A stretch of DNA of 64,000 nucleotides from assembly GCF_030269925.1 (NCBI RefSeq), contig NC_085121.1, positions 1,753,501 to 1,817,500 of the forward strand. The letters run 5' to 3'. The stretch comes from Bombyx mori. Lineage: Eukaryota; Arthropoda; Insecta; Lepidoptera; Bombycidae. Under the pieces are notes generated by a model, which was not told the origin of the DNA, ran no database searches, and saw nothing but the letters and a program-made list of their open reading frames with translations. Made by a program: the position numbers and the translations under genes. This document shows, piece after piece, positions 5 to 12,741 of the stretch (position 1 is the stretch's first letter; each line of letters begins with the position of its first letter).

Positions 5-3000
5 TCTTCAACTGAATGTATGAGATGTAATGCCTTCATGAGTTCAGTGATGTACGAGTGCGAATCCAATCGCTTCGTGGTTGGCGTCACTGTCGACTCT
101 GTCGTCTGCGTCACACCTGGCAACACTGGCACTTCAGTGTTGCAAGCACTGTTGATCGCAAATAAAAATAATTAATAATTCCGAATTGGTTTTGTAAAAG
201 TGGTTTATGATTCTTGCCTCCTGTTTGTTTTTCAAATTGACATTTTTTATTTATTGAAATCGGTCTAAAATTAAATCTAATACAAATAAAACTAAAATTA
301 AATACCAATAAAGTAGGGAATTTGATTATGATCAAAATAAATAACATTTTTGAGTATATACCTGGCAGCCGCTCGTAAGGTCCTGGCGAGGTTGGCCGGC
401 GCGGGCGGGAAGGGGGCACGCACGAGCAGCGCCCGCACCTGCCAGTACAGCGCCGCCAGCCGCCGCCCCCCGCGGCTCGCCACCAGCGCCAGCTGGTTGT
501 ACGGCTGACCGGAGTGCGCCCACACGCACACCGCCTGTCTGACCCGCACATACAACATACTTGGGTATACAGGGCCCGGTGCGTGAATATCCTCAAATTT
601 TAATTGTCAAGAGAGTTGGAAGTCATCTCTAGTGAAACTAGCAATATGTAGGGACACAGTTTGAATAGCGCATGCGGTTGTACATCGATTGTTAAAGTCA
701 ATCGTCCATAGCCTGCCCGACACGGCAGACACTTGATAATATACGGAGTAAAATCGAAACCGGCTTGTTTTATTTATGAAGAACAGTAACACCTTTACAC
801 GCCTTATAAACCGTACAGTGAGGACCACGAAGTGATAAAAAAAGGGGGACTTATGTAGGGACACAGTTTGAGTAGCGCATGCGGTTGTACATCGCTTGAT
901 AAAGTCAGTCGTACATAGCCCGCCCGACACGGCAGACACTTGACAATATACGGAGTAAAATCGGAATTGACTTGTTTTATCTATAAAGGACAATTAACGG
1001 GTTAACCTTTACACGCCTTATAAACCGTACACAGTAGATGCATAATATATAGAACAGGTGTTTTTTCCCAAGATTATGGGATAATGAAATGGGAAATAAT
1101 TTCCGGATAACAAAATCATAGTATTGAATTTTTATATTGTTATAATTTTATTTATGACTAGCTGTACCCGTCCGCTTCGCTGGGCATTTAAAATTAACAT
1201 TATTATTTCTCACCCCCACAAAGATTCTCATCATTACCGCCCCCGCAACTGGTGAAGGGAGTCCAACACTCATATAAATCCATGAAGTACATGTATTTTC
1301 TACATGGATACCAAGTTTTAAGTCAATCGGATGCATTCAGTAATTATAACGGAACATCCGTAAAAACCATTGTAGATTTATATATTAGTATACAAGTATA
1401 GATAATAATTTTACCTGTAGAAGGTATGCGCGACTCTAAGCTGTTGTCTGTACCGCGCCAAGTCTCCTAGATGCACGAGGCAGTGCTGACAGATGTACCG
1501 CGCGGCGGGGGCGGCGGGGAGCCGGCCGCCCGCCGTCAGCTCGCCCGCCCCCGCGCCCGCACCCCACCCCTCCACCCAGCCCACCAGGGATGTGCGACGT
1601 CTATTACAATAAACATTTCTATGCAATTATCAACACAACTATAACACTATAGCTATAAATTTCTAGCTTATTAAAATATGTAGCAATACGTCAGGTACGT
1701 AACAGGTGAAAGTGTAGTAGTATTTTAACATTGACATATGATTTAAAAAAAAGTTATTATCATATGTTTCATATATCGTAATTAAAAAGACAAAGTAATA
1801 TATTAATAAATGTCTCACCTGAACGGTAAATCTAATTTAAATGTTGTGCATATCTGGTGCAGCAAACATAGATAGAAGCCGGCGGCGGCTTGCAGCACCA
1901 GTGAAAGCATCGCTTGACCCTCACTGCGTTGTGGATTCTAGAAGTAAATAATGAACAGAATATGTCGTTAATGGTCTTTTTGCTCTATGGCTTGATTTCC
2001 TAATAAATTTAGGAATGTCATTCGTGTAGATTATTAGCTTCTTTTTTTACTGCCTATGTGGAGAGAAAAGCATAACAGATGGTTAGTGGCGGCCAACACT
2101 CATGGATAACAGCAATGCCAGAAGGACAGACAGAGGGAAGTTCATTCCAGAGCCTGGTGGCATATGGTAAAAATTAACTGGTAATGCACTTTAGATGAAC
2201 GCCATAGTTTCAAATAGTATGATTGAACCCTACTCTGGTTGTGAGAATAAGATCATCTCAAACAATTACTCCTAACATTTGTTCCAGCCCCATCCATAAA
2301 TTATTGCTGCCATAAGTACTGTATTATATTCTAGTCTACATTCTAGTTACATAGCATTTCCATTTGCTATTTGTCTGTGGGAATTTAAATTATATAAAAT
2401 TATAAAGGAGAATTCAATTTACCTTTCTATCCTTGGATATGGCTTGCAGGGCTTCAATTTGTTGTTTGAAACCAACATTCCACAAATCTTGTTCAACTTT
2501 CTTCTCCAATGCATAATCCAGGTCTAAAACTAACACTTTTTGGTATATCTGTAATGTTAACGGACTATGTTACTGTATGTTTTTAAGCAATTTAAGCAAA
2601 TGTAAGAACTGGCAGATCCAATTGGAGCCATCGTCAAATGTAATTCACATATAACGTAAAAAATTAGCAGATAACTATTATGTTAAGTAATATTCAAGTA
2701 AATTGAATAGTATTAAGTACAATTATTTTTCACCTATAAAGTGCTCACAATAATAATTTCATTTTGATATTGAATGTTAAGAAATTTTCACAGAAACAAC
2801 TAAAACCCTTATTAAAATAAGTTAAAACAGTACATATTTGTTTAAAAGTTACCTTGAAATGTGCTTAAATAAATGTTGATGCTAAGTAGTTGTGTAGTGA
2901 TGGTTTAGAAGGACAACTTCTTAAAGTTTTTACTGGTGGTAGGACCTCTTGTGAGTCCGCATGGGTAGGTACCACCACCCTGCCTATTTCTGCCATGAAG

Positions 3001-4512
3001 CAGTAATGCATTTCGGTTTGAAGGATGGGGTAGCCGTTGTAGCTATACTGAGATCTTAGAACTTATATCTCAAGGTGGGTGGCGCATTTACGTCGTAAAT
3101 GTCTATGGGCTCCAGTAACCAATTAACACCAGGTAGGCTGTGAGCTCGTCCACTCATCTAAGCAATAAAAAAAAAATGTTTTATAAGTGCAGCTCAATGT
3201 CCTTCAGCTAAGATTCAAATAAACACTCACACAGCATGTGTTATAAATTTTTCTTAGCTGTCAAGTTATATATGGAATTAAAAACCTTTTGTAACTGTTG
3301 TTGTGTTGTCCATATATTTTGATCTTGAAGCATTGATGTTCCACTCTTAAAATTTAATATATTTTGTTTCAGCTCATCAGCTTCCCTGCACAAACAATTT
3401 ACACACTCAGCAACATTCATAGAACCACAACTCTATATTTACAGTCTATCTAACCTAAGAAACATCTTTCACAAGCATTGAAAAAGTATAACACTTTTAT
3501 TATTTATTGTGCAACTTACATTTGATGCAAGCAACTTCTTAGTAACATAACCTTTGTTATAGTTATATATGTGTGTATATATATAGTAGTTATATTTTTG
3601 TATATTTATGTTAAGTGACACTGATGGATTTGATATCTGGGGCCTTGAGTAGGAAATAATTAAGGATACTCATTCAGCAGAGAATCATTCATTTATCAAA
3701 GCGATGTCTGTAAAGATCCTTTGACTTGGGTCTAGAATATCATCAAGTACTAATTAGCTAGTAAGTTAGTACTTAGATAATACTACTTAAGTAGTGCTTG
3801 ATGATCCTCTATACAACTACAACAATGCAATTTTTTGAAATCATTTTTAATTTCAAAATCAAGACACTTCTATAAGCTCAAGCTCTTTACTAATGCACTT
3901 GACTAAAGGCAGTTTTTAATTTTATTTATTGGGTACCAACATGTTATATATATACACAAACCATTACAATTAGGTAGCACATATTAATTTCAGACTAAAT
4001 GCTAGCACACTGACAACTAACACTGCTTGAGAACCTCAGAATGAATCTTGAAATTGTTGACCTGTTTGTTTATGAGTATCTTTTTTTTTCATCACAATTA
4101 TTCCTGGTTTCGACGGGTGACACCATCGGCAACAATAATTAGAACTGTCAATTTTAAGCGTTTTATCCCCAAAGTAATAATCTTTTATTTTCGGTTCTCT
4201 TGCTGATTTTTTTATGATACTTGTGGTATTTGAAAATGGGGAAAAACTAAAATCCAAATGGTTAACTCCAAAAAAAAAAAACTTTCACTACCTATTCAGT
4301 AAAACAGACAAACATACAAAAACAAACAGAAAGATGTGAATTTTTAAAACTTTTATAAAATTATATTTTTTTAAGATACATAATACTGAATAATTACTTA
4401 ATTTTACATCTGAATTGGAATGTCACTCCTTTGATTAGTGAAACAAGGTTACACACTTTAGACTTATTAAATTTTTGTACCTCAACATCTGCACGGCTGC
4501 GTTTAGTACCAT
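5..4512 (-). CDS. SMG7: SMG7-like nonsense-mediated decay factor, N-terminal part (gene continues left of window)
   Basis: Coding exons on the minus strand join in phase: 4512-4481 (start ATG at 4512; the exon itself runs to acceptor 4533), 3385-3286, 2548-2423, 1937-1819, 1600-1415, 538-362 and 148-5. About 294 residues are visible. The start reads MVLNAAVQMLREADELKQ. Later segments include YALEKKVEQDLWNVGFKQQI, YICQHCLVHLGDLARYRQQL and GQPYNQLALVASRGGRRLAA. They match the 14-3-3-like/TPR N-terminal domain of animal SMG7 (EST1 family) in order, and fit SMG7 better than SMG5. SMG7 binds phosphorylated UPF1 and recruits decay enzymes in the cytoplasm. Exon 1600-1415 encodes a Gly/Ala-rich, GC-rich spacer just before YICQHC. 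The last exon is the least certain: an in-frame TGA lies at 3-1, so I place a GTGA donor at 4; its ITELMKALHLIH fits the family. Any 5' untranslated exon upstream of 4533 is unresolved. Confidence 0.9.
645..1036. repeat. Two-copy direct tandem repeat, about 208-bp unit, in an SMG7 intron
   Basis: Both copies carry TGTAGGGACACAGTTTGA followed by GCGCATGCGGTTGTACATCG (near 645 and 855). Both end near CCTTTACACGCCTTATAAACC (around 790-812 and 1001-1025, quoted in part). Copies differ by scattered substitutions and a small insertion. No coding potential seen. Confidence 0.75.
1157..1392 (-). mobile_element. Helitron-like non-autonomous element
   Basis: Read on the minus strand, it starts near TATACTAATATATAAATC and ends CAGCTAGT, the CTAG(T) 3' terminus typical of lepidopteran Helitron-like (Lep1-related) repeats. 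The same family recurs at 46679-46859 on the plus strand. It lies inside an SMG7 intron. Confidence 0.55.
2930..3176 (+). mobile_element. Bm1 SINE, 5'-truncated
   Basis: Begins TACTGGTGGTAGGACCTC, has the diagnostic Bm1 body (GCCATGAAGCAGTAATGC, GTCTATGGGCTCCAGTAACC, GCTGTGAGCTCGTCCAC) and ends AATAAAAAAAAAA. The tRNA-like head is missing. Inserted in an SMG7 intron. Confidence 0.9.
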
Positions 4513-4533: not shown

Positions 4534-6205
4534 CTGCAACTGTCACAGCATTAGGAAATTATTTTAAAAGAAAAACTAGATTAAGAGAGGCAAGAATAAT
4601 CTTAAAAAACACTAGAAACAATCCATGTCCATTTGAAAATTCACATTTGATTTTTTTTAAGGGATTTTATGACCTGGTAACTAAGACCTTTAAGTCATGT
4701 CTTATTTTAATTTATATTGTTTTTGTTATGAAAAATAATAATATTATTTAAGTGAACTGAAGTGAAATGATGTGAAACGAAGTAAAGTGAAGAGAAGAAA
4801 ATATAAAAAAATATAATCATACCAAAAATAATGAATAATGTGTTTTACGCATCCAATCTCGATAAATATAAGAAACACAAGTATGATTAGAAGCTTGAGT
4901 ATCGGGATAAAATAATAGATTTTAACCAAAGATAAATTTATTGGCAATTCTTGGACAATCAACTTACAAAGTGATCATAGAAATTCATTCCTAACTTACT
5001 AGTCTCTGAATCACACTAGTATTTACATTCTTATCGCTATAATAACGAAGGTTGCAATTTAATCTGCGATCCAAGATCGCCGGTCACTTTGAATCATATT
5101 ATTTTTCTCGCTTGGTTCACTTCTGTTCAAGTTCCACGCTGACGAACACTTTTTTTATATTATTTTCCCTACCTATTCGCTGCTAGCCTAAAAATCTACT
5201 TAAGCTACGCCCGGCCCGGACGGGTAGGCGAGCTCACGGGCTCAACCGTTTGCTAATACTAGCCCTAGCAAGAGCAGTGCTTCGCAGAATCTTCACAAGA
5301 TCTGAATCGCGACCCACTGAGGAGATCCGGCGAGAAACTCAGAGGGCTATATCGACGAAGTGCTTATATGTCTCAGCCCCTGGAACTCAGCGAATCTCCC
5401 CAAAGTTCTGATAATACGTACTGTAAGGTCTTAAGAATCATTTTATGAATAGAATATGTTCATATAATCATGCTATGAACGTTCGTCTGATCCATACTAG
5501 ATAGTATTAGTTGTTGTGTTGTTTGTGTTCACTATTCCTACTCGATCAAGCGGCGGTCCGCTCGCTTCCCCGCTCACCTTCCCGCGATCGCCCTGTAGCG
5601 TGAGTACGGTTAGCATCTTTGTCATACGAGTTTTCGTATCCTTAAACGTTGAATTTTAATTTTTTTAACTGTTCTTGTTAGGTTTTTTGTTGAAGTTTAG
5701 TTATATTATTGGACTATTTTTGTTAAGTTTTTGTTGAACTGTTATTAAGTTACTGAACGCTTAACGTTCATTTTTTTTTTACTTGGAGAGGCTTGTTGTG
5801 GACAACAAATTGAAAGGAAAGGTGATATACAGTGAAGGGAGAAACATAATCCTGAAAAGAAACATAAAGGAAAATTATTACTGAGCAATTGGGATACATA
5901 TTTAAAAAGTGCAAGAACACCCGGGTGGTCTTAATACAAAAACCCGATATCGCTATATTTTAATGTACCTAGATATAATATATTGTTAAAAACAATAAAT
6001 GCAAAGTAAAATCTAACAAACATTTGTTTACATTTTAAAGTCATAGCGAATCCTTTTTTAAGACCGTACTTGCGGCAGTGTGACGTATTCGATGCGAGGT
6101 GCAAACTTAGCTTGGTCGAGCTGTACTAACTTATTGTAGATTACCTACTGTCATTAGACTCATTAAGTAACTCATGCACATGGAGTTAATAAGTACCTAC
6201 CATAG
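4534..6205. other. Region upstream of the SMG7 start; no host gene recognised
   Basis: It should contain the SMG7 promoter and any 5' untranslated exon, but no clear element is visible. Near 4745-4800 there is a degenerate GTGAA-type simple repeat. At 5796-5880 a short plus-strand reading frame (DNKLKGKVIYSEGRNIILK) looks like a transposase fragment of unknown family. The rest is AT-rich with nothing else recognised beyond the SINE at 5153-5350. Confidence 0.4.
5153..5350 (-). mobile_element. Diverged copy of SINE family B
   Basis: Shares GGCGAGCTCACGGG, CCCTAGCAAGAGC, TGCTTCGCAGAATC, CGACCCACTGAGGAGATCC and GAGAAACTCAG with the better copies at 13876-14177 and 30130-30500. Several substitutions mark it as old. 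Confidence 0.65.
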
Positions 6206-6214
6206 ATAGGTTTC
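6206..6214. repeat. Left target-site duplication of the foldback element
   Basis: ATAGGTTTC, identical and in the same orientation as 11638-11646, one base outside the inverted-repeat terminus. Confidence 0.7.
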
Positions 6215-6215
6215 G

Positions 6216-7951
6216 GGTGAATGAAGTTAGCCCCTCAAAAAAATTTTTTTTTCCTGTTTTCTACTTATTTTCTATTAATTCGTTTGTTCATCATTTGTTC
6301 TTGATTGTTCACTGTTAATAATTGTTTGTTCCCCATTTATTTATTTTAAAAAAAATATTAAAAATATATCTAAAAGTTAGCCCCTCGATTGCAATTTTTA
6401 ATATTTTTTCGTCCTTAATTCCTCGTAAATATTCATTTTCGATTGTTCTTATATAAAATACGTTTGTTCTCTTTCAAAATTACTCATTTTTTGTTTAATT
6501 AATTGTATTAGTTGAATAAATGTATACAAAATATGTGTACTGCGCATGCCATAAGTGTATAATCTATGGCGCATGCGTCAACTATAATGCCTAAACTTTC
6601 TACGCGGTTTTAATCGTGAAAAAAAAACAATTATAAATCCTGAAGGATCAATTAATTGGTATACAGTTTAATTAAAAAAATTAAAAACAAAATAAATAAA
6701 ATAATGTGCATTCGCGTAAAGTTAGACCAAATACATTTTTTCCATCCTCCTATATACCTATCGCTATGAAGGTATAAAAAAGATAGGTTAAGACTTCGTT
6801 CACATAGGTAATATAAACAAATAAGTAAATATGTTCATTATTTATCTTAAGAGATAATGTAGGTATACATTATAATAACATTTTGACACAGTCGAAATTA
6901 TATTCCTAACATTAGTAAAATAACATTTTAATATTTTTTTTATAGGTTATGTATTGAAATTGTTGGAAAATTATTTCATGTTTTAGCTGGAAAACTACAT
7001 GGCGAATTATATGCAATACAAGATAATGAGCTCCATTAAATGAATTCGAATGAAACCAAACTGTTTACCATCCAAATTCGATTGTCGGGCAGATAGAAAA
7101 CGAAAATTCACTCATAGTGAACCTCGGCCTGCATTTGTGAAACGGCAAAGACTCACTATTATCAAGGAAATTGAAGAGACAACTAAAAATGAGATGTGTC
7201 GTATTATTATACCTTTGCCATCTTGTAGTCAAGGTAGGTGTAACTGTCAATAATTAGTTACACTCACAGATCTCCTAATCAAATAACAATATCAGAAAAA
7301 ATGAGAATAGTTAGTTAGTTAGTGAAAGTAGCCAAAATGGGCAAGTGGATCTCAGTTCCTATTACATAAGGTACTAGGAAGTTTGTGAAAATGAAAATTT
7401 ATCACAGTGTAATATCACTTACTTACTTTAACAGTGAAGGAAAACATTGTGATGAAACCTGCACACCTAAATGTTCTTAGGATTTTCTTAGGTGTGTAAT
7501 CCACCAACCAGCACTAGGCCAGCGTGGTGGACTAAGGCCTAAAAACCCTCTCAATGGTAGTGAAGGCCAGTGTCCAGCAAGGGGATATATTATATGGGCT
7601 GATGATGATGACTAGGAAGTTAAATACTACTACTACTACGACAGTACACATATAATCCTATATATTTACAAACTATACGTTTGTTGGAAATTGCTAACAT
7701 TATTTCATATTTCCAGATGTCCAGCCACTTGAAAATAGGTGTAGTAATGACAAAGCTATCCAAGTAGCTCCAGCACAGGAACACAAAGGCAAGGCAAGTG
7801 TGTATTGCCACATCACCCCTTAATATATCTGAAGCAAGTATAAGTAAACAATCAGAACCAGCAAAAAAAAAACTGTTGTTCCTGAGGACAAATTTGACAG
7901 TGATGAGTCAAATGCACCAGCAACAGAAGGATCAACTGTTGACTATGGGTT
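6216..7951 (+). repeat. Left arm of the long inverted repeat
   Basis: Nearly identical to the reverse complement of 9896-11636 over about 1.74 kb, judged by eye with only scattered differences and small indels. Contains an AT-rich subterminal region, a THAP tail exon (7050-7253), an embedded repeat with a TGATGATGATGA tail (about 7420-7612), and a frameshifted second exon reading VQPLENRCSNDKAIQVAPAQ. Homology stops abruptly after GTTGACTATGGGTTAT. Confidence 0.9.
7050..7253 (+). pseudogene. THAP-type transposase fragment, left copy
   Basis: A 67-codon reading frame begins RMKPNCLPSKFDCRADRKRK (the R codon precedes the ATG), then RPAFVKRQRLTIIKEIEE. The KPNCLPSKF motif resembles the AVPxIF box that closes THAP zinc-binding domains. 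In-frame stops precede it, so the C2CH part is absent or spliced from upstream. The right arm carries the identical protein on the opposite strand. Assignment rests on this short motif and on the HTH segment downstream in the right copy; it could be another DNA-binding domain. Confidence 0.5.
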
Positions 7952-8362
7952 ATAGAAGAAGAAGATTAATTCATATTTATTTAAATTAATATTAATGAAT
8001 ATTAATTTAAATTATCGTGCAAAATTCGTGGTGAAAACATGTGTATTTTATAAATAAATATTCATTCTCAGTATTAATGTTGTTTTAATCATCGATTGAA
8101 AAATTGGTTCTTAATGAATTTAGTTGGAGCTAAATGCTGCTTGGAGCTTAATACTTTCGAATAACATAAACACGTGACTTTAAGCATAAACATATTTTTT
8201 AGGTAAATACTTTATTTAGCTTTGCTGGATTTATCCAAGATTTCGACATACCAAAATTTCATACAGGAACGACAGATAGATAGCTATCTGATTGAATACC
8301 CTTGTAGAATTGAGCTTCGAAGAAAAGTTTATTCTTATTCTTTATTAGACTTTATTCTAGTT

Positions 8363-8409
8363 GCAGTGTCGGTTAGAGAAGCTGTGCAAGCTTCTCTAAC
8401 CGATACTGC
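8363..8409. repeat. Near-perfect short hairpin in the foldback loop
   Basis: Arms 8363-8383 and 8389-8409 pair over 21 positions, with one G-U wobble if transcribed, around a 5-nt loop. Weaker symmetry extends outward to roughly 8340-8440. It could be a tiny MITE or a transcribed hairpin. Confidence 0.7.
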
Positions 8410-9503
8410 ATGGAATAAATAGTCATTATAATTATAAAATATATTTCTGTTTACATACCATACAATTTTCATAGTTCAAATATGAATTTGGATTGATATG
8501 AATTTATTTCGATTATCAAAATAATTTGTATTAAACATTTATATTTCCTCAAAATTTCTATTTTTATAATAATGACTGTGACCACCCCATAAATCACAAA
8601 ATTAAAAATATTAAAGATAACTTATTTTTAAATCATATATTAAAAATTATAAACAGATCGCGAATTAAAATATTATATTATGCCTATCATTCTTAAATAA
8701 TTCAGTAATGAATTTTCGCATCGCCGCGCCGTATATAATTAATATGAATAATAGGGTATTGCCCACTGTGCTAAAAAAAACATAAATTATGTTTTTTTGA
8801 TAGATCTACAAACAAGCAAGTGAGTAATGCTATGTTTCCATAAATAAAAAGGCAAAAAAAAATTAAAGAAAGATATTATGCACAAGTTCAAATGCATATG
8901 TATTGTGCTAAAAGTAAAACTTGCTACTTTTGTGTAGCATCCAGCAACTTTGAAAAAACTAATCAGGTCACTATAATTAGTAGGTATTGATTTTGATTCC
9001 GAGTAAGTTGCACAGTTGTTAGATAATGTAGTTCTTGGAAGTTCTTTTTGGAAGAATAACAATTTTCTAATCTTACACAAAAATGTAATGTTAAATATTT
9101 AAAAAAAACTTCATACCTATTTTCCTTTTAGGGAGTACAAAATATTGATGTGTACAAAGTGAATGTGATTTAATAAAAATAATATTTCAATTTAAATTAT
9201 GTTTTATTAAAAATTATTCTTAACATACAGGTACAAAGGTTACATAACATTAATATTTATTCCTTTTCATATATATAAGCCCATATTTAGCACATTTGTG
9301 GAAAACAGAATCAAAATAATAATGAGTTGCTAGCCATAGAAGACCAGCATAAAAGTCTTATTAAAATCTGTTCAGTAGTTTTTGAATGAAGAGTGAAAAT
9401 ACTTACAAAACTTCCTATTTATAAGTAAGGATTACTTATTTAATTAAAGAGTTTTGTAGGTGGCAACCTATCTAAAAACTTTCTATTTTCCACCAAGTTG
9501 ACA

Positions 9504-9818
9504 TCAATTATCCTTCCTGCATATATATTTATTGTATTGTTTTTTTAATAGTCTAACAAGGGGTGATATTACATTTGCAATTTCTGGGAGTTTGTTGAAA
9601 AATATATTGCTTGCTTGACTTACAGATAAATCGAAATCATCAGCCAAATGAGAGAATGTTCTATTTAATGTTATTCTCATCAGACATAATACAATATTTT
9701 GTTCAGAAACATTTGTATGTTTCTCAATCAAGCCTATTATGAAACATAATTCTTGTGGAAGACCAATATATAAACGTTGTTTATTTTTCACTTTAGATAA
9801 AGTTGTTAACACATTCAT
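9504..9818 (-). pseudogene. Helix-turn-helix segment of a DDE transposase
   Basis: Reads MNVLTTLSKVKNKQRLYIGL, then QNIVLCLMRITLNRTFSHLA and DDFDLSVSQASNIFFNKLPE. This is the pattern of the HTH found N-terminal to DDE_Tnp_4-type transposases, where an L-RL-ADxF-IS-S--SxIF signature is usual. Upstream on the same strand a frame reading VPEDKFDSDESNAPATEG leads into it but ends at a TGA overlapping the ATG region, so a frameshift or splice separates them. The frame ends after KKQYNKYICRKDN; no DDE catalytic core is found in the loop. The element therefore cannot move itself. Confidence 0.55.
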
Positions 9819-9895
9819 TTTTTCAACTTTTTAGTCTTCTTGAGAGCTATAGTCTGAAGTGCACAAGTCTTTGATGGAGTGGAGATATAGAGAGA

Positions 9896-11636
9896 TAACT
9901 CATAGTCAACAGTTGATCCTTCTGTTGCTGGTGCATTTGACTCATCACTGTCAAATTTGTCCTCAGGAACAACATTTTTTTTTTGCTGGTTCTGATTATT
10001 TACTTATACTTGCTTCAGATATATTAAGGGGTGATGTGGCAATACACACTTGCCTTGCCTTTGTGTTCCTGTGCTGGAGCTACTTGGATAGCTTTGTCAT
10101 TACTACACCTATTTTCAAGTGGCTGGACATCTGGAAATATGAAATAATGTTAGCAATTTCCAACAAACATATAGTTTGTAAATATATAGGATTATATGTG
10201 TACTGTCGTAGTAGTAGTAGTAGTATTTAACTTCCTAGTCATCATCATCAGCCCATATAATATATCCCCTTGCTGGACACTGGCCTTCACTACCATTGAG
10301 AGGGTTTTTAGGCCTTAGTCCACCACGCTGGCCTAGTGCTGGTTGGTGGATTACACACCTAAGAAAATCCTAAGAACATTTAGGTGTGCAGGTTTCATCA
10401 CAATGTTTTCCTTCACTGTTAAAGTAAGTAAGTGATATTACACTGTGATAAATTTTCATTTTCACAAACTTCCTAGTACCTTATGTAATAGGAACTGAGA
10501 TCCACTTGCCCATTTTGGCTACTTCCACTAACTAACTAACTATTCTCATTTTTTCTGATATTGTTATTTGATTAGGAGATCTGTGAGTGTAACTAATTAT
10601 TGACAGTTACACCTACCTTGACTACAAGATGGCAAAGGTATAATAATACGACACATCTCATTTTTAGTTGTCTCTTCAATTTCCTTGATAATAGTGAGTC
10701 TTTGCCGTTTCACAAATGCAGGCCGAGGTTCACTATGAGTGAATTTTCGTTTTCTATCTGCCCGACAATCGAATTTGGATGGTAAACAGTTTGGTTTCAT
10801 TCGAATTCATTTAATGGAGCTCATTATCTTGTATTGCATATAATTCGCCATGTAGTTTTCCAGCTAAAACATGAAATAATTTTCCAACAATTTCAATACA
10901 TAACCTATAAAAAAAATATTAAAATGTTATTTTACTAATGTTAGGAATATAATTTCGACTGTGTCAAAATGTTATTATAATGTATACCTACATTATCTCT
11001 TGAAAGATAAATAATGAACATATTTACTTATTTGTTTATATTACCTATGTGAACGAAGTCTTAACCTATCTTTTTTATACCTTCATAGCGATAGGTATAT
11101 AGGAGGATGGAAAAAATGTATTTGGTCTAACTTTACGCGAATGCACATTATTTTATTTATTTTGTTTTTAATTTTTTTAATTAAACTGTATACCAATTAA
11201 TTGATCCTTCAGGATTTATAATTGTTTTTTTTTCACGATTAAAACCGCGTAGAAAGTTTAGGCATTATAGTTGACGCATGCGCCATAGATTATACACTTA
11301 TGGCATGCGCAGTACACATATTTTGTATACATTTATTCAACTAATACAATTAATTAAACAAAAAATGAGTAATTTCGAAAGAGAACAAACGTATTTTATA
11401 TAAGAACAATCGAAAATGAATATTTACGAGTAATTAAGGACGAAAAAATATTAAAAATTGCAATCGAGGGGCTAACTTTTAGATATATTTTTAATATTTT
11501 TTTAAAAATAAATAAATGGGAAACAAACAATTATTAACAATGAACAATCAAGAACAAATGATGAACAAACGAATTAATAGAAAATAAGTAGAAAACAGGA
11601 AAAAAAAATTTTTTTGAGGGGCTAACTTCATTCACC
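9896..11636 (-). repeat. Right arm of the long inverted repeat
   Basis: Reverse complement of the left arm. On the minus strand the coding remnant runs from the THAP tail through VPEDKFDSDESNAPATEG and, unlike the left copy, continues into the loop as DYELSLYISTPSKTCALQ. Confidence 0.9.
10597..10800 (-). pseudogene. THAP-type transposase fragment, right copy
   Basis: The 67-residue translation is identical to that of 7050-7253, on the opposite strand. It is the 5' part of the longer right-hand remnant that leads to the HTH segment at 9504-9818. Confidence 0.5.
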
Positions 11637-11637
11637 T

Positions 11638-11646
11638 ATAGGTTTC
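11638..11646. repeat. Right target-site duplication of the foldback element
   Basis: ATAGGTTTC, matching 6206-6214 in direct orientation. Confidence 0.7.
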
Positions 11647-11852: not shown

Positions 11853-12178
11853 CATTCCCGATCCTGCGGACAGAATGGAAAGCAGTCGACGTCGCCGTGT
11901 CGCTCCAAACACGTCATATCAGATCCTCCCGGTCCACTAACGGTGCTTCTAGGTACCTCAAGCACCGGTCATCGTTCTCGTCGAACCCGTCGCTTGCGAC
12001 GAAGGGTTCGACGAGTAAACTAACCGTCAGACACAGCCCACTGAGTTTCTCGCCGGATCTTCTCAGTGGGTCGCGTTTCCGATCCGGTGGTAGATTCTGC
12101 GAAGCACGGCTCTTGCTAAGGTTCGTATCAGCAACGTCGTCAGGTTTGAGCCCCGTGAGCTCACCTACTAGTTAAGGT
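11853..12178 (+). mobile_element. SINE family B copy
   Basis: Begins CATTCCCGATCCTGCGG and contains GAATGGAAAGCAGTCGACG, CGTCGCTTGCGACGAAGGG, CTGAGTTTCTCGCCGGATC and GAGCTCACCTACTAGTTAAGG. It lacks a clean poly(A) tail, so the 3' end is truncated. The 92-residue reading frame over it is SINE-derived. Confidence 0.8.
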
Positions 12179-12741
12179 TGAGCCATTAATAAAATATCTG
12201 ATGACAGGCAGTACTTTTGAGAGTGCTCGATTGTGCGAAGCATTGCTGTAGCTGGAACATTCAACGTTGAGCATGATGCCGCATAATGCGCTCTAGTGCT
12301 GTAATTGGAATACCACTTTTACCTTTATTCTTGTATGTGGCTAATGCACAAACCGTGCACATTATAAAAAAAAGCATTTCACTTCACAAACACAAACCCG
12401 ACTTTTTGGCGGGAACGCGAGAAGTAAAGTTGTGTGATTTGTTTTATTTTGCCTATTTCGTGTTTCTTCAGGTTTAAATGTACAACACCGGTGGTTTATT
12501 AACTATTTAATATCTCTGAAAGTGCACAAATGTGGGAAAATGAAACAAAGCCGTTGGACGTAACTTCTCGGGATCTTCCAAAAAGTCCACTGAGAAATCT
12601 CAGTAAACGACCATCATTTTACTGAGATTATATTTCATCCCCTATCATTTCATCTCATCTCATTTCATGCAATGCCATGTTTCATATTAAATTAATCAGC
12701 TTCATTTCATTTCATAATATAATATTTCATAAAAAAAAAAA
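12179..12741. other. Gene-free spacer between SINE B and the maT element
   Basis: AT-rich with a CATTTCAT-type degenerate simple repeat around 12640-12730 and an A-run at 12731-12741. No gene, RNA or recognisable element. Confidence 0.4.

Follow-up and report, generated by a model that had tools for sequence, protein, structure and literature searches.

A foldback element of Bombyx mori, probably an internally deleted copy in a NOF-type family

The 64,000-nucleotide stretch of Bombyx mori DNA analyzed here (the window; positions 1,753,501 to 1,817,500 of NC_085121.1, our contig C15) contains a palindromic foldback element of 5,423 bp at window positions 6215-11637, with exact 9-bp repeats outside both ends. 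We read it, with a probability of roughly 0.83, as a non-autonomous derivative, shortened by internal deletion, within a silkworm family of NOF-type foldback elements, probably within the MULE/IS256 superfamily. The window copy has no NOF frame. Such a frame, open over 1,036 codons and homologous to the NOF of Drosophila FB-NOF, is found in a 13.8-kb sister copy (C24:782677-796440) that shares the family ends and is flanked by an exact 9-bp duplication. This kind of element is already known, and the silkworm family is a new member of it. An earlier note, made from the window sequence alone, had suggested an undescribed kind of transposon, which is not supported, because the same-ended sister copy carries a NOF-type frame that fits MULE/IS256; MULE was nonetheless among the superfamilies that the note proposed, in agreement with the reading favored here.

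Ends, arms, and target sites

The element is delimited by the following features (window coordinates).

6215..11637, no strand: whole element, a non-autonomous foldback copy; bounds set by exact duplications in 40/45 copies
6206..6214, no strand: left target-site duplication ATAGGTTTC, 9 bp
11638..11646, no strand: right target-site duplication ATAGGTTTC, 9 bp
6215..7953, plus strand: left inverted arm, 1.74 kb
9895..11637, minus strand: right inverted arm, 1.74 kb
6216..6234, plus strand: terminal motif GGTGAATGAAGTTAGCCCC, 19 bp, 221 exact genome copies
11618..11636, minus strand: terminal motif GGTGAATGAAGTTAGCCCC at the other end, 221 exact genome copies
6375..6386, plus strand: subterminal second copy of AGTTAGCCCCTC, read by eye, with a mirror copy at 11466-11477
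7954..9894, no strand: loop between the arms (blastn)

The arms mismatch at 10 of 1738 aligned positions when the outermost base is counted, with three gap events; at 0.58% divergence the earlier note's description of the element as young is fair. Its view that the palindrome is one transposed unit with near-identical arms is confirmed by these alignments, by the exact flanking 9-mers, and by the 221 ends in the genome. The 9-mer ATAGGTTTC has no third occurrence in the window, but the pair is weak evidence alone, as 14 of 100 shuffles also give at least two occurrences, and its weight therefore comes from its position and from the other copies. With up to three mismatches allowed, GGTGAATGAAGTTAGCCCC matches the window twice, both times at the element ends, and none of 100 shuffles reaches two matches. 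A single base on each side (G 6215 and T 11637) sits between the perfect palindrome and the 9-bp repeat; we assign both bases to the element because their inclusion gives exactly 9-bp duplications in 40 of 45 copies. The subterminal copies of AGTTAGCCCCTC are a possible transposase site. Tandem repeats take the form of small arrays, the best of which (score 79) lies in the loop, and the arms are not built of them. Another repeat, present as two inverted copies of 87-88% identity (5250-5353 and 12030-12134), lies about 0.85 kb and 0.4 kb from the element.

The silkworm host assembly (461.7 Mb in 30 contigs) contains 221 exact matches to GGTGAATGAAGTTAGCCCC and none to its reversed control, and G is the first base at 54 of these ends; the viral contigs searched with the same motif gave no match. 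From the first 100 listed places of the 221, 35 plus/minus pairs of ends less than 20 kb apart could be made, leaving 30 ends unpaired; 10 pairs span 1.1-1.3 kb, four 2-3.5 kb, 14 4.5-6 kb, and seven are longer. Four members of the 1.2-kb class, read end to end, are near-complete palindromes with 87-89% identity to the arm and have no gene piece inside. In 17 copies compared over ~550 bp, the two arms of one copy diverge by 1.16% on average, hardly less than the 1.30% seen from copy to copy, from which we conclude that the arms are not strongly homogenized. Fifteen copies start with G at one end and A at the other; when these are set with G at the left, the helix-turn-helix (HTH) segment of the loop lies on the minus strand in 10 and on the plus strand in five, for which recombination between arms would be the simplest cause. 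A supposed end near a DDE gene (C13:4406150) turned out to be a complete 1.2-kb palindrome, and the long frames in L017, L020, and L025 look by eye like later retroelement insertions. The longest frame in L016 has 152 codons.

The duplication length that the earlier note proposed is borne out by exact 9-bp duplications in 40 of the 45 copies read at both ends (16 of 17, 6 of 8, 17 of 18, and the 13.8-kb copy; a copy covered by two loci, L017/L018, failed). The set of 17 consists mostly of the best-scoring copies in a genome search, in which 40 of 325 candidates were scored, the window among them; the sets of eight and 18 are mostly hand-picked plus/minus pairs from the first 100 of the 221 listed places, and L020 and L025, for which the stretch read showed a single end, were excluded. 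The check that the earlier note proposed thus came out in its favor, with many copies sharing the ends and the 9-bp duplications. Homology running past the termini, the second result that the note said would refute it, was not seen: with base 16 of the query as the first element base, alignments of 38 of the 39 other scored copies begin at query bases 12-17, and one at base 4. The copies without an exact duplication are varied. L044 has a single mismatch in the 9-mer, L092/L093 match at one of nine bases, and L017/L018 at six of nine by eye; in L014 part of the terminus is repeated at the left end, and although ATATATAGA matches by eye outside this repeat, the copy was not scored as exact; and L047 has inverted flanks. 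At this last site (L047 with L054/L055; C8:11341000-11345000), flanking DNA is inverted together with the family copy, forming palindrome arms of 1,290 bp (99.7%) that extend 891 bp beyond the element on each side and reach the edge of the stretch read. It is possibly a snapshot of foldback-driven rearrangement.

Four target sites were also seen empty, in relatives of the targeted sequence. The target 9-mer of L042 occurs once in empty relatives within L042 itself and in L027, that of L015 once in a relative in L024, that of L048 once in a relative in L039, and that of L009 once, with one base altered, in an 87% relative in L053. The window has an empty site of its own at 12400-12535, a 75% relative of the repeat hit by L042, in which the target 9-mer ACACAACTT occurs once.

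The NOF-type frame and the origin of shorter copies

The 13.8-kb copy has arms of 3,080 bp with one mismatch, and among three NOF matches in the silkworm genome it is the sole one spanning the whole core. The best fold match to a predicted structure of the NOF relative P0123, which is 68% identical to the silkworm frame, is an IS256 transposase, and in this model the NOF protein has an RNase H-like core. The DDE triad residues are kept, at D363, D432, and E654 in the protein of the C24 copy. NOF would be what moves the family. A NOF-type protein would bind the ends common to family members, excise the element, and join it to target cuts staggered by 9 bp; the shorter members, both the 5.4-kb elements and the 1.2-kb palindromes, would arise by internal deletion and then be mobilized in trans.

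The window element has a layout suited to such a derivation. Positions ~8091-11636 are largely collinear (blastn) with one arm and ~270 bp of the loop of the 13.8-kb copy: element bases 5422-2654 and 2494-1877 align to 59-2799 and 2814-3409 of the C24 stretch, and collinearity starts at the right end and reaches roughly base 3,350 of the 13.8-kb element, after which the opposite arm follows. This layout could be the product of one internal deletion in a NOF-bearing parent, with its joint probably near 7954-8090. Because the window and C24 copies are ~88% identical, the parent would be a forerunner related to the C24 copy.

Several observations count against this interpretation. The C24 copy, at only ~88% identity, is not the direct parent of the window element, and its frame is broken after the catalytic part relative to P0122, with the tail in other frames. 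The P0123 model also resembles the folds of the P element and of Hermes, and in Foldseek ISCth4 and the P element both score under 0.001. The Pfam MULE model PF10551 does not match codons 1-698 of the silkworm NOF frame, and among 23 NOF relatives it matches one (E 0.095); we regard this as weak evidence because the Pfam MULE genome search overlooked the NOF frame. Exact duplications are missing in five of the 45 copies. The arms of Drosophila FB are arrays of short tandem repeats, which are lacking in the silkworm window arms. Finally, Drosophila FB-NOF is reportedly called non-autonomous in the title of a 2013 paper by Badal, and the NOF frame could itself be a passenger.

The C-terminal part of NOF relatives gives weak matches to ubiquitin/SUMO proteases (UCH in two of 23 and Peptidase_C98 in three of 23), to be likened to the Ulp1-type proteases that some MULEs carry. 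In a tree of NOF relatives (P0122-P0125), P0124, annotated Cotesia-style, falls inside the moth clade beside the silkworm copy (99/97), and the sister of this clade is Microplitis; these positions are a lead toward transfer between moths and parasitoid wasps. A bolder proposal, which we hold only tentatively and think somewhat less probable than its negation, is that NOF is the true foldback transposase, that a single silkworm NOF master, very recently inserted or homogenized, still powers some hundred palindromes that depend on it, and that the lineage has passed between moths and parasitoid wasps.

ISL2EU-type remnants and alternative movers

The arms and loop of the window element hold pieces of another transposase gene.

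6981..7232, plus strand: fossil exon with stops, THAP-region tail of an ISL2EU-type transposase, left-arm copy (tblastn)
10618..10869, minus strand: fossil THAP-tail exon, right-arm copy (tblastn)
9504..9830, minus strand: fossil HTH_Tnp_4 segment (PF13613, 33.9 bits, cut-off 27; tblastn)
9458..9523, minus strand: DDE_Tnp_4 trace of 22 residues (P0002 residues 265-286, 82%; tblastn), most of the catalytic domain being missing

The earlier note had recognized these as a THAP-like tail and an HTH of DDE_Tnp_4 type, an assignment upheld by the PF13613 score and by tblastn, and the clash it saw between the superfamily of the remnants and the 9-bp duplication is real: the published ISL2EU duplication is AT (PMC4482050). 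Full-length moth relatives such as P0014 have THAP, HTH_Tnp_4, and DDE_Tnp_4 domains. The silkworm relative LOC119629683 (C16, 100% over 418 residues) lies tail to tail with a 403-aa YqaJ frame, 45 bp apart (L029, C16:7042732-7046931); a THAP-HTH-DDE transposase with YqaJ is the published ISL2EU gene pair. No terminal repeats, ends, or duplication were found for this pair, which could therefore be an ISL2EU unit that was stranded or tamed; one supposed end proved false, as homology to L030 continued past it. An intact THAP-HTH-DDE_Tnp_4 transposase was not found in the element, the DDE domain is missing from every family copy read, and no YqaJ is present among the six window open reading frames to which that search was confined. 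A search of the viral contigs with P0002 found no relative, and a PDB sequence search with the HTH piece gave nothing relevant. Because the same-ended sister copy carries a NOF-type frame fitting MULE/IS256, the THAP, HTH, and DDE_Tnp_4 pieces, the fossil of an ISL2EU-type transposase, are most simply taken as passengers.

Among the alternatives, the one that survives best, although we consider it improbable, is that NOF is a passenger as well and that the family owes its movement to a third transposase not yet seen, either another MULE or a gene since lost. That just one copy bears NOF, that its frame is broken toward the C terminus, and that Drosophila FB-NOF is said to be non-autonomous would all suit it; however, the NOF core is itself predicted to fold as a DDE transposase. 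PF10551 has two genome matches (four of four candidates scored); they sit on C1, more than 30 kb from any listed end, although this model misses NOF too. The Merlin domain (IS1595-type DDE, PF12762) has no match in the silkworm genome. For the P-element-type RNase H (PF21787), none of 72 genome matches lies within 5 kb of the ends listed on C1-C12 (distances by eye; ends beyond C13 were listed in part), and one lies at 8 kb on C10. As a separate matter, 21 of these 72 matches share one score, 17 of them in 817-aa open frames, and the silkworm may therefore hold recently active P-like elements.

Slightly less probable still is that an ISL2EU-type transposase of the family's own, making 9-bp duplications, was the mover, which would be a new PHIS group; this was our earlier favorite and was demoted when the NOF frame was found. 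Remnants of the gene are present in the arms of both the 5.4-kb copies and the 13.8-kb copy, and an old copy (C24:13337000-13348300), which lacks a mirror arm within the stretch that was read, joins arm sequence to a larger part of the DDE domain, from which we conclude that the association is old. Against this stand the published AT duplications, the four short members without any gene piece, and the 13.8-kb copy, which supplies a transposase that fits the duplication length. In a search with the DDE half, for which all 93 candidates were scored, family copies retain at most residues 46-95 of 190, the copy nearest to the family is truncated, and the only full-length match is LOC119629683 (64%). 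With THAP exon 1 as query (150 of 178 candidates scored), family copies match residues 57-94 only, and the match to residues before 57 that comes closest to a listed end is 9.4 kb off, with none inside 5 kb (C5:101893; distances by eye, with ends on later contigs partly listed).

A chance inversion or assembly fault with no transposon, for which one may point to the L047 flanks as evidence that inverted duplication of DNA does occur here, is already refuted for the family by the 221 exact ends, the 40 of 45 exact duplications, and the four empty target sites.

Relation to known foldback elements

Returning to the NOF-type reading, the silkworm family resembles Drosophila FB-NOF in its long inverted arms, a NOF-homologous frame between them (in one silkworm copy), and many derivatives lacking NOF; the FB target duplication is likewise 9 bp. 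It differs in that its arms hold a fossil ISL2EU-type gene. Tm1, a Phantom/MULE foldback of root-knot nematodes, shares the foldback ends, target duplications that are mostly 9 bp long, terminal bases outside the inverted repeat, and, in the isolates examined, the presence of a transposase in just one copy, but its transposase has FLYWCH and Pfam MULE domains and its arms are mostly 13-15-bp tandem repeats (PMC3169594). ISL2EU (PHIS) matches the silkworm arms in the THAP tail, HTH_Tnp_4, and DDE_Tnp_4 trace, with LOC119629683 and YqaJ as a relative, whereas its duplication is AT rather than 9 bp. Capture of the Pack-MULE sort also places foreign gene pieces within MULE-type ends, although here the captured gene is a transposase that sits in the arms, and no close donor was found (93 of 93 candidates). 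Galileo shares the foldback shape and a THAP link but has a P-type transposase, and no P-type domain lies near the silkworm ends within the distances and contigs given above.

No description of the family was found in the literature searched; Repbase lay outside the comparison. BmTEdb has 269 unknown terminal inverted repeat entries and one ISL2EU (PMC3722987), and the family may be among these entries. A survey of arthropod MULEs does not mention Bombyx or FB-NOF in the portion of its main text available, and the longest arthropod MULE arms that it gives, 1,193 bp, are exceeded by the 3.1-kb arms of the C24 copy (PMC13359780).

What moves foldback elements is a standing question: for Tetris, a transposase was reportedly not found (PMC4079207). 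The remnants in the silkworm arms also counsel caution, since coding remnants within a foldback need not come from its mover, and here they point to the wrong superfamily. The silkworm family unites in one genome 9-bp duplications, empty sites, several shorter size classes, and one lone copy whose NOF-type frame is open, and with the predicted fold of NOF pointing toward IS256/MULE, the question of the foldback mover becomes testable.
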